14,474 bases of DNA from Promethearchaeota archaeon (lineage in GTDB: Archaea > Asgardarchaeota > Lokiarchaeia > Sigynarchaeales > SOKP01): positions 1-14,474 of the forward strand of contig JAEOTL010000182.1 of NCBI GenBank assembly GCA_016839845.1. Reading direction: 5' to 3'. How positions within the stretch are numbered: position 1 is the first letter of the stretch; every line of letters starts with the position of its first letter. Both the position numbers and the translations under genes were made by a program. The notes under the pieces are model-generated. The model ran no database searches. It saw only the letters and a list, made by a program, of their open reading frames with translations, and had not been told where the DNA came from. Positions 12,725 through 14,474 of this stretch are shown piece after piece.

Positions 12725-13096
12725 TCAAGACCACGCAACTTTATTTATGAAAATTGACCACTCTAGTATTATCAATCCTTCATCCCTTGTATGAGCGACA
12801 AGATAATCCCCTTCTTTAGTAATTGATCCTACAATGTTACCTTTTCCTCCTCCAATATTCTTAGCAGCCAATTGAATCTCATCGTTTTTTAAAATTGCAA
12901 ATCTACTGCCTTGAAACACGAGAGCAGGTTCGTTTGTTTTCCATGCAGTGAGAATTGCTCTTGCTTCATCGTTAGATAATTGGAATTCTCCTGATTTAAA
13001 AACAACATCTCCTTCACTATTTAACAGAAAAATCTCCTCTATTCCTTCCTGCTTATTTAGAGCATTGGAAAGCTCATGAAATCTTTGTTCTTCCAT
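12725..13096 (-). CDS. Small profilin-like protein (roadblock/LC7 fold as alternative)
   Basis: A 123-residue alpha/beta protein without signal peptide or membrane span. Predicted order: helix (3-14), strands (GIEEIFLLNSEG, DVVFKSG), helix with an acidic cap (SNDEARAILTAW, 41-52), strands PALVFQGSRFAILKNDE and EIQLAAKN, a glycine loop (GGGKG, 82-86), strands IVGSITKEG and DYLVAHTRDEG, and a C-terminal helix. Strand order and the 'G-x-K/R-[FY]-x-V-x-x-x-D ... K-x-G-x-x-G ... T ... L-[IV]' spacing resemble profilin, an actin-monomer binder found in Asgard archaea and eukaryotes; the length also fits. Roadblock/LC7 proteins have a similar topology and cannot be excluded. It stands alone, transcribed toward psmA, divergent from the DUF2110-like gene. 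Confidence 0.55.
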   Translation of the reverse strand: MEEQRFHELSNALNKQEGIEEIFLLNSEGDVVFKSGEFQLSNDEARAILTAWKTNEPALVFQGSRFAILKNDEIQLAAKNIGGGKGNIVGSITKEGDYLVAHTRDEGLIILEWSIFINKVAWS

Positions 13097-13258: not shown

Positions 13259-14059
13259 GTGATCTTATTGCCAAAAAGTTTAGTATTAATCGATAAAATT
13301 TACAATATTTCACCAAAAAAACAAAAGGAAGATATTTACTTAAGATATCAAAAGTATTTATATGAGCATATCAAGGGATTTCCTGACACTACAGTGAAAT
13401 TAAAAAAATTAAGGCAATATGACAAAAGATTCGAGGTCATTATAAACGGACCTGAAGAAGTTTTTGTTCAAAACTTATTAAAAAGCGAAATAGGGAGTAT
13501 TCAAGAATTTAATTCAATAAAAGTTGGTCAGATTTTCAAAGGAACACTGGTGGATGTAGGAAAGGTCGGGTTTGGATTATTTGCTGATTGCGGTATCATG
13601 GATCCACAAATAGATATATTAGTAAATTTACATACACTTCGGACTCAATTATGTAATGGTAAGGAAAAATCCTTAAAGGAAATTATTGAAGCATATGAAT
13701 TTATAGATAATTTCCCCGTTTATGTAAAAATCACTAAGATTGAAACAGAAAATAATAAAATACAAGGAGAATTTGCCCCTGAAACCCTCAACCTTTTTAA
13801 AAAAATAACACGCGAAAATATTGAGGGTGTGTTTCTCAGTGGGGAGACCAAGGGTCAGTTTAAGAAAGTAATAACACAACAAGGGCATTTTAGAGATATC
13901 ATTACAGTTAAGAGATTTGGTTTCTTAGAAAACCTCGTTTTATTAAAGAAAGACTCCGATGCTCCAGGAATTATCTCTCACATTGGAAAAAAACTCAAAA
14001 ATTGTAAGATGAGTGCAATACGACCTAAAAAGATAAGAAAATTGCTCTATGACAAGTAA
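13259..14059 (+). CDS. DUF2110-like archaeal protein with an S1/OB-like segment
   Basis: A 266-residue soluble protein starting at GTG; an in-frame TAA at 13241-13243 excludes a longer form. AGGAGA lies about 30 nt upstream, too far for an ordinary site. The centre (about 89-131, VGQIFKGTLVDVGKVGFGLFADCGIMDP onward) has the G-x-V/L-V-D-V-G-K-V-G-F-G pattern of an S1-like OB-fold, followed by NLHTLRTQL and EFIDNFPVYVKI. The C-terminal part (HFRDIITVKRFGFLENLVL, then DAPGIISHIGKKL) fits the uncharacterised archaeal DUF2110 group as I recall it. An RNA- or nucleotide-related role is only suggested by the OB-like part and by conservation in archaea. The gene converges on the tRNA-Val gene, 7 nt away. 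Confidence 0.65.
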   Translation: MILLPKSLVLIDKIYNISPKKQKEDIYLRYQKYLYEHIKGFPDTTVKLKKLRQYDKRFEVIINGPEEVFVQNLLKSEIGSIQEFNSIKVGQIFKGTLVDVGKVGFGLFADCGIMDPQIDILVNLHTLRTQLCNGKEKSLKEIIEAYEFIDNFPVYVKITKIETENNKIQGEFAPETLNLFKKITRENIEGVFLSGETKGQFKKVITQQGHFRDIITVKRFGFLENLVLLKKDSDAPGIISHIGKKLKNCKMSAIRPKKIRKLLYDK

Positions 14060-14066
14060 GAAATAA

Positions 14067-14169
14067 TGGGCCAGAGGAGGTTCGAACTCCCGATTTTCTC
14101 GGTGTAAGCGAGACGTCTTTGCTCTATTTTAGAAGTTAAACAATATTATAGCCACTAGACCACTGGCCC
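14067..14169 (-). tRNA. tRNA-Val (UAC), interrupted in the D-loop
   Basis: Exons (minus strand) 14148-14169 and 14067-14117 join to a 73-nt tRNA. Acceptor GGGCCAG/CTGGCCC pairs fully; the D-arm is GTC-TAGTGGCTAT-GAC; anticodon stem TCTCG/CGAGA holds the loop CTTACAC with anticodon UAC (14104-14106); T-arm GGGAG-TTCGAAC-CTCCT; discriminator A, with CCA not encoded. Without removal of about 30 nt the D-loop would be about 40 nt long. No intron is at the usual 37/38 site. It reads GUA/GUG valine codons. Confidence 0.88.
14118..14147 (-). other. Non-canonical intron in tRNA-Val D-loop
   Basis: About 30 nt (29 if one more A stays in the loop). Exon GCT can pair with AGC near the intron 3' end, flanked by small unpaired bulges, and TATT/AATA forms the inner stem, a relaxed bulge-helix-bulge structure with a 3-bp central helix. 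The exact boundaries are uncertain by 1-2 nt. Confidence 0.7.
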
Positions 14170-14197: not shown

Positions 14198-14341
14198 AAT
14201 AATTAGTTAAAATTAAAATTTGTGATTTTTAAGGAGAATTGAAAATATATATTCTCTAGGCTATCTAAAACCATATCTAAACTCCAAAAAATATCTCAAT
14301 ATATAATTAGTTCTTGAAAAATATGAGCGCTCAGGGTGGGA

Positions 14342-14371
14342 TTTTCGGTGATATGCTAGATGCATAATCTT
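14342..14371 (-). other. Non-canonical intron in tRNA-Ser T-loop (59/60)
   Basis: 30 nt. Exon T-stem GTGGG/CCCAC is the outer helix, TTCG/CGAA the 4-bp central helix, AAA and AAT the two 3-nt bulges, and TATGC/GCATA the inner hairpin. Cutting after the second nucleotide of each bulge, the normal rule for the archaeal endonuclease, leaves exactly the T-loop TTCGAAT. This is a textbook bulge-helix-bulge site. Confidence 0.88.
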
Positions 14372-14434
14372 TTCGAACCCACGTATCCGTTGGACACTGG
14401 TTTAGCAGACCAGCGCTCTACCAGGCTAAGCGAC

Positions 14435-14465
14435 GTACTTTCTATCAATCTAAAAGATTAATGAA
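14435..14465 (-). other. Non-canonical intron in tRNA-Ser acceptor stem (6/7)
   Basis: 31 nt. ATTAATC/GATTGAT forms a 7-bp intron hairpin. Bulges AGT and ACG, each cut after the second base, flank an imperfect central helix (GCTC with AAGT: one G-U pair and one C-A mismatch). This join restores a perfect 7-bp acceptor stem and U8. Confidence 0.75.
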
Positions 14466-14474
14466 CTGAGCTCT

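Follow-up and report, generated by a model that had tools for sequence, protein, structure and literature searches.

A Lokiarchaeal tRNA-Ser(GCU) gene with introns in the acceptor stem and T-loop, and acceptor-strand copies in the leaders of related genes

A tRNA-Ser(GCU) gene interrupted by two introns, one in the acceptor stem and one in the T-loop, is present at the end of the window, i.e. of the whole stretch of 14,474 nucleotides that was analysed. It is most probably (about 0.92) a functional gene of a Lokiarchaeon, giving a transcript with two introns of the bulge-helix-bulge (BHB) type. The gene itself belongs to a known kind, because such introns have been published for other Asgard archaea; the element that, judging from the sequences, appears to be new is a copy of the acceptor strand in the leader, which accompanies the acceptor-stem introns in relatives of the window.

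The interrupted gene and its exons

The gene, its parts and its neighbours are as follows.

14471-14328, minus strand: tRNA-Ser(GCU) gene, with exons of 6, 63 and 14 nt and a spliced length of 83 nt
14472..14474, minus strand: 5' leader, the last 3 nt before the contig end
14466..14471, minus strand: exon 1, GCTCAG, positions 1-6 (splice tested with ARAGORN)
14435..14465, minus strand: 31-nt intron of the acceptor stem (site 6/7), putative relaxed BHB
14372..14434, minus strand: exon 2, positions 7-59, anticodon GCU (Rfam fragments and ARAGORN-tested splice)
14342..14371, minus strand: 30-nt intron of the T-loop (site 59/60)
14328..14341, minus strand: exon 3, positions 60-73, discriminator G73, CCA not encoded
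14067..14169, minus strand: neighbouring tRNA-Val(UAC), spliced length 73 nt; D-arm intron of 30 nt at 14118-14147 (limits set by eye)
13259-14059: DUF2110 gene (Pfam)

ARAGORN detected no tRNA at the locus in the unspliced window, nor after removal of a single intron; with both introns removed, it called a tRNA-Ser(gct) with a complete cloverleaf. The Rfam tRNA model matched the D and anticodon arms alone, below its threshold. The coordinates, intron lengths, intron sites and 83-nt product given in a preliminary description of this DNA were all exact, and its warning that standard searches would miss such a gene was borne out. The neighbouring tRNA-Val(UAC) likewise was not detected by ARAGORN. 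Counts of Asgard tRNAs made with standard tools may miss real genes. As the exons lie in order within 144 nt, there is no need to invoke a circularly permuted or split gene.

The contig is archaeal (32.8% G+C), and its DUF2110 gene has 31 related loci, each with Lokiarchaeota or Lokiarchaeia in its title and with 53-82% identity in the best segment. An uninterrupted tRNA-Ser(GCT) is present at 12 of these loci, at most about 1.5 kb from the DUF2110 gene, and it is such intron-free orthologues that prove the identity of the exons. The spliced window tRNA is identical at 79 of 83 positions both to L078, which is intron-free, and to L071, which was compared after splicing of its T-loop intron. 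Both have the same acceptor stem as the window tRNA, and exon 1 recurs unchanged in L074, L090 and L099 and in the acceptor stem of L078. In the anticodon stem, a pair is compensated between the window (CTGGT/ACCAG) and L078 (CCGGT/ACCGG).

The tRNA-Val(UAC) gene has orthologues without intron in L005, L007 and L009, and in L003 and L011 insertions occupy the site of the window intron; a further orthologue, in L004, seems by eye to contain three insertions. A small protein encoded at 12725-13096 (minus strand), close to proteasome alpha, SBDS and exosome genes, matched profilin weakly, with E 0.00068 and short of the curated cut-off.

Introns of tRNA-Ser(GCU) in the class and their splicing motifs

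Of the 83 genomes of the class, 52 matched a 25-base pattern for tRNA-Ser(GCU), at 54 places in total, and none matched a reversed control pattern. The intron table includes 54 of 55 genes, counting the window and leaving out L062. No intron is present in 18 genes, while the D-stem is interrupted in 29, the T-loop in 15 and the 6/7 site in four. The D-stem (at about 23/24) is the only site in 19 genes, T-loop 59/60 in three, and 6/7 in two (L090 and L099); D-stem and T-loop introns occur together in ten genes, and 6/7 and T-loop introns in two, namely the window gene and L074. Four genes (L098, L103, L107 and L109) were assigned to the D-stem plus T-loop group by eye, because an exon-3 look-alike inside the intron caused the script to call a 2-nt insertion. 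The T-loop introns of these four and of L108 contain a sequence close to the exon-3 strand (e.g. CCCATTGATTAC compared with CCCACCGATTGC), which is enough to make a parser see a complete tRNA and is the 3'-side counterpart of the leader copies described below.

Throughout the phylum, an exact pattern, which may miss cases since it tolerates no mismatches, found the 6/7 intron in three of 227 genomes, the same three as in the class. One tRNA-Ser(GCU) pattern match each was obtained in genomes G009, G015 and G065, so that the interrupted gene is the sole copy found there. Two other bins hold two tRNA-Ser(GCU) genes each (L065 and L092 in G043; L105 and L106 in G071) with differing D-stem introns, either as mixed bins or as true duplicates.

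In a tree of the DUF2110 proteins (31 sequences, L030 left out), the window adjoins a clade formed by L011, whose tRNA-Ser gene has the same two introns, and by L003, L005, L007 and L012, which have none (support 65). L021 and L026, with the 6/7 intron only, are placed amid near kin having D-stem plus T-loop genes. Their tRNA (L090) and the one from the distant L011 genome (L074) are identical at 82 of 83 positions. The simplest reading of such near-identity between distant genomes is lateral replacement of the tRNA-Ser gene. A single essential tRNA gene has undergone both gain and loss of introns, at three sites, inside one class.

The borders of the window introns were scored against shuffled introns (single-base shuffles). 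At the T-loop intron, the cuts fall between AA and A and between AA and U, and the central helix UUCG/CGAA has all four pairs (P=0.006); on the intron side the helix is weak (P=0.42), and the two helices jointly give P=0.02. Of the BHB motif that had been called perfect, the central helix therefore stands, but the weakness of the intron-side helix makes this border a relaxed form. All of the five T-loop introns scored, out of 15, have a fully paired central helix, with TTCA/TGAA replacing TTCG/CGAA in L066; some of the others (L067, L111) have three of four pairs by eye, and those of L071, L079 and L074 lie at the same site as in the window and look similar by eye.

At the 6/7 intron of the window, cut between AG and U and between AC and G, the central helix GCUC/AAGU is weak, with three of four pairs (P=0.06), and the intron forms a strong hairpin, UCAUUAAUC/GAUUGAUAGA (P=0.015; P=0.002 for both helices jointly). 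The hairpin begins 1 nt past the 5' cut and ends 6 nt short of the 3' cut in all four genes with this intron, the spacing in L074, L090 and L099 having been read by eye. The four central helices have 3, 2, 3 and 3 pairs of 4, with combined-score P values of 0.0004-0.007, and the introns have diverged in sequence (19/34, 24/31 and 21/33 aligned identities). The 6/7 border thus has exact BHB spacing and is at best of the relaxed form. A central helix in another register (GAGCU/AGUUC, in L090) was dropped by eye, being absent from the window and L074.

Copies of the acceptor strand in the leader

In L074, L090 and L099, the heptamer GCTCGGG starts 17-19 nt upstream of exon 1 and can pair with the 3' acceptor strand CCTGAGC at all seven positions, one of them G-U. 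The copy is therefore present in all three tRNA-Ser genes of relatives with an acceptor-stem intron, and within 60 nt it was found in none of 50 tRNA-Ser genes without such an intron. Among 67 other distinct intron-free tRNAs, three had a copy, in each case GGGTTCG upstream of tRNA-Val, which is read as the T arm of the preceding tRNA-Ser gene. It should be noted that L090 and L099 are near-identical, so that the three cases represent two lineages at most, and that lateral transfer may link them to L074. Only the last 3 nt of the leader are included in the window, and the corresponding stretch would be outside the contig.

RF00005 scans of 12 Lokiarchaeal genomes for further acceptor-stem introns, with 22 regions read by eye, gave one new case, a tRNA-Ile in G015; beyond the known cases, the regions, drawn from the matches listed, looked by eye like D-arm, T-loop or other introns. 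The new case led to a survey of tRNA-Ile(GAU), which was found in 39 of the 83 genomes of the class and has a 7/8 intron in 14 of the 39. In each of these 14 genes, a second acceptor strand lies upstream, imperfect in two: 11 pair at 7/7 positions by script, L172 does so in the alignment, and L189 and L190 pair at 6/7 by eye. No copy was found in 21 tRNA-Ile controls with an intact acceptor stem, four of 25 (L173, L204, L207 and L208) having been dropped because of strands misread by the script or 6/7 pairs. Outside the class, tRNA-Ile was found in 14 places and 12 were fetched, with two places of G097 left out; ten were readable by eye (L217 and L218 were not), and none of these ten has an acceptor-stem intron.

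An acceptor-stem intron poses a problem, since its splicing must use the strand that holds the tRNA closed. A tentative explanation, to which we give slightly less than an even chance, is that the 3' strand pairs with the leader copy as a stand-in, so that the real strand is available for building the splicing motif together with the intron. Candidate stand-ins accompany the 6/7 introns of tRNA-Ser(GCU) and the 7/8 introns of tRNA-Ile(GAU), and one would be expected upstream of the window gene. If this is true, it would be a new way of tolerating an acceptor-stem intron.

In the folding of 13 tRNA-Ile precursors, the helix between leader and 3' strand had a probability of 0.37-0.99 and the BHB central helix one of 0.34-0.98; when the leader was scrambled, pairing with the 3' strand passed to the real strand (0.30-1.00), and the probability of the central helix dropped to 0-0.38. 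For the precursor of L172, the leader helix had 0.97 and the central helix 0.20, the latter becoming 0.00 with a scrambled leader. These folds indicate that the leader copy can serve as a stand-in strand before splicing. The tRNA-Ser precursors L074, L090 and L099 had central helices of 0.02, 0.08 and 0.16 natively, and scrambling of the leader produced no consistent drop (0.00, 0.26 and 0.22). After in-silico splicing, the 3' strand was held by the leader with 0.20-0.85 and by exon 1 with 0-0.67 in the 13 tRNA-Ile, by the leader with 0.45 and by exon 1 with 0.53 in L172, and by the leader with 0.98-1.00 and by exon 1 with 0 in tRNA-Ser. The models favour a stand-in role in tRNA-Ile before splicing, but neither after splicing nor in tRNA-Ser. 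Since the leader still wins after splicing in nearly all cases, one has to suppose that tertiary folding or RNase P displaces it.

This failure after splicing would be expected less of a stand-in than of a functionless remnant of the tandem duplication that made the intron, a reading that we regard as a serious competitor, though somewhat less probable. The tRNA-Ile leader resembles the gene beyond positions 1-7, as far as position 13 (GGGAAAG-CGGCTT compared with GGGAGAG-TGGCTT), and the near copies of the exon-3 strand in T-loop introns (L098, L103, L107-L109) are also what duplication could leave behind. Against it, the leader and 3' strand of tRNA-Ile are paired in register in 94 of 98 alignment cells (95.9%), as compared with at most 68 of 98 when the leader is shifted by 1 to 5 positions. 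Moreover, L170 and L172 have C2-G71 for G2-C71 in the acceptor stem and a leader copy changed likewise, perhaps as one event, and the leader heptamers of L074 and L090 are identical despite diverged spacers and introns. For the whole tRNA-Ile structure, shuffles that ignore relatedness reached the covariation score in 0 of 500 cases, the number of pairs changed on both sides in 3 of 500, and the number of further pair types in 30 of 500; shifted partners were no more than 74% paired. In the tRNA-Ile counts, each related genome is taken as a separate case.

It is also conceivable, but improbable, that the leader copy of the genes with acceptor-stem introns is the true first exon, the intron being longer and including the inner copy. 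In predicted folds of the three tRNA-Ser precursors, the leader outcompetes the inner strand for the 3' strand by 4.9 to 10 kcal/mol, and it also takes the 3' strand in most tRNA-Ile precursors and after splicing. Furthermore, the copy of L090 lies 44 nt past a TATA-like stretch, close to the 42 nt seen by eye for the tRNA-Ser start of L084. However, the inner strand is identical to the acceptor strand of the intron-free orthologues (in tRNA-Ile, GGGAGAG in 12/12 and GCGAGAG in 2/2), whereas the tRNA-Ile leader varies and has a U6xU67 mismatch in L189 and L190. The base that follows the leader, at the place of U8, is not U in 11 of 14 tRNA-Ile, and BHB geometry is obtained by eye from the inner-strand cuts only, in textbook form in L172. 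Cuts after the leader copy were dropped by eye, as they give no hairpin at the right spacing.

Splicing enzymes, known systems and standing of the gene

Matches to PF01974 were found in 20 of 20 Lokiarchaeal genomes, with two paralogues, alpha and beta, in 17 of them. The KPR loop and the Y/H/K triad are present in 18 of 18 alpha subunits, while the catalytic His is missing at all 12 beta loci fetched, from 19 beta matches. G003 and G006 have the beta type alone and G009 the alpha alone (genome completeness not given); the two introns of the window recur in G009, where the PF01974 search found no beta subunit. Relatives of the window thus appear to encode a two-subunit splicing endonuclease in which one paralogue is catalytic and the other lacks the full triad, and the heteromeric, broad-specificity enzyme anticipated in the preliminary description has a probable counterpart in these 17 genomes, with the Crenarchaea-type loop of their alpha subunits. 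RtcB was present in six of six genomes tested.

For comparison, PDB 3p1z and 3ajv are structures of (alpha-beta)2 EndA with the Crenarchaea-specific loop, from A. pernix, and 1a79 is from M. jannaschii. The alpha subunit of G009 (L046) has 3p1z_B as its best PDB match and keeps K44 and R46, but for one Lokiarchaeal beta (L050) the nearest structure by sequence is 1a79. Lokiarchaea belong to the archaeal group closest to eukaryotes, and the presence in them of a Crenarchaea-type loop, a feature associated with broad intron removal, bears on the origin of eukaryotic tRNA splicing. As far as the available parts of the sources go, K44 and R46 are the loop residues named for A. pernix (PMC12397907), and the Crenarchaea-specific loop is tied to relaxed motifs (PMC6379350, PMC12397907).

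In the window, both introns would be cut by an (alpha-beta)2 endonuclease with a Crenarchaea-type loop, the exons would be ligated by RtcB, and the tRNA ends would be trimmed by RNase P and tRNase Z. For the 6/7 intron, by extension from the relatives, a leader copy might keep the 3' strand paired while exon 1 engages the intron. Transcription, cutting and ligation, and the presence of the enzymes in the window's own genome, are thus presumed.

Among Asgard archaea, tRNA introns in Atabeyarchaeia and Freyarchaeia are often outside 37/38, with several in over half of the tRNA genes (PMC11291895). These are Asgard hosts with non-canonical sites, as here, but of other classes, and the available part of that source mentions neither introns in the acceptor stem nor copies in the leader, nor the type of endonuclease. 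The Thermoproteales resemble the present case in that a tRNA may contain as many as three introns, many of them outside 37/38, and that multiple introns are linked to an endonuclease type with a specific loop; this is another archaeal order, and the available parts describe no leader copy of the acceptor strand (PMC4033280, PMC8450103). The window itself belongs to the Lokiarchaeia and not to the Thermoproteales. The acceptor stem is already known as an intron site in archaeal pre-tRNAs, and the available parts of the sources give no 6/7 or 7/8 case and no second strand in the leader (PMC6379350, PMC12397907). Among the open-licence matches listed, no title or beginning of an abstract referred to non-canonical or acceptor-stem tRNA introns in Lokiarchaeia, nor to leader copies of the acceptor strand.

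That the insertions destroyed the window gene, leaving another tRNA-Ser(GCU) in service, is very unlikely, given that the exons are intact, the cloverleaf complete and the anticodon stem compensated, that three relatives have the same 6/7 insertion in the sole copy detected, and that the insertion borders are BHB-like. Least likely of all is an assembly artefact: the window does end 3 nt from the gene, and a tRNA-Ile locus of G015 (L188, about 600 nt from a contig end) looks by eye like a chimaera, with the 3' flank of L201 and an L174-like 5' half, but the 6/7 intron lies inside longer contigs in L074 (73.8 of 114 kb), L099 (5.4 of 202 kb) and L090 (27.6 of 34 kb). As a separate observation, the tRNA-Ile loci L188 (contig C92 of G015) and L201 (G073) have their 3' flank in common and differ in their 5' halves, only one having the intron, as a result of either recombination or a chimaeric contig end.
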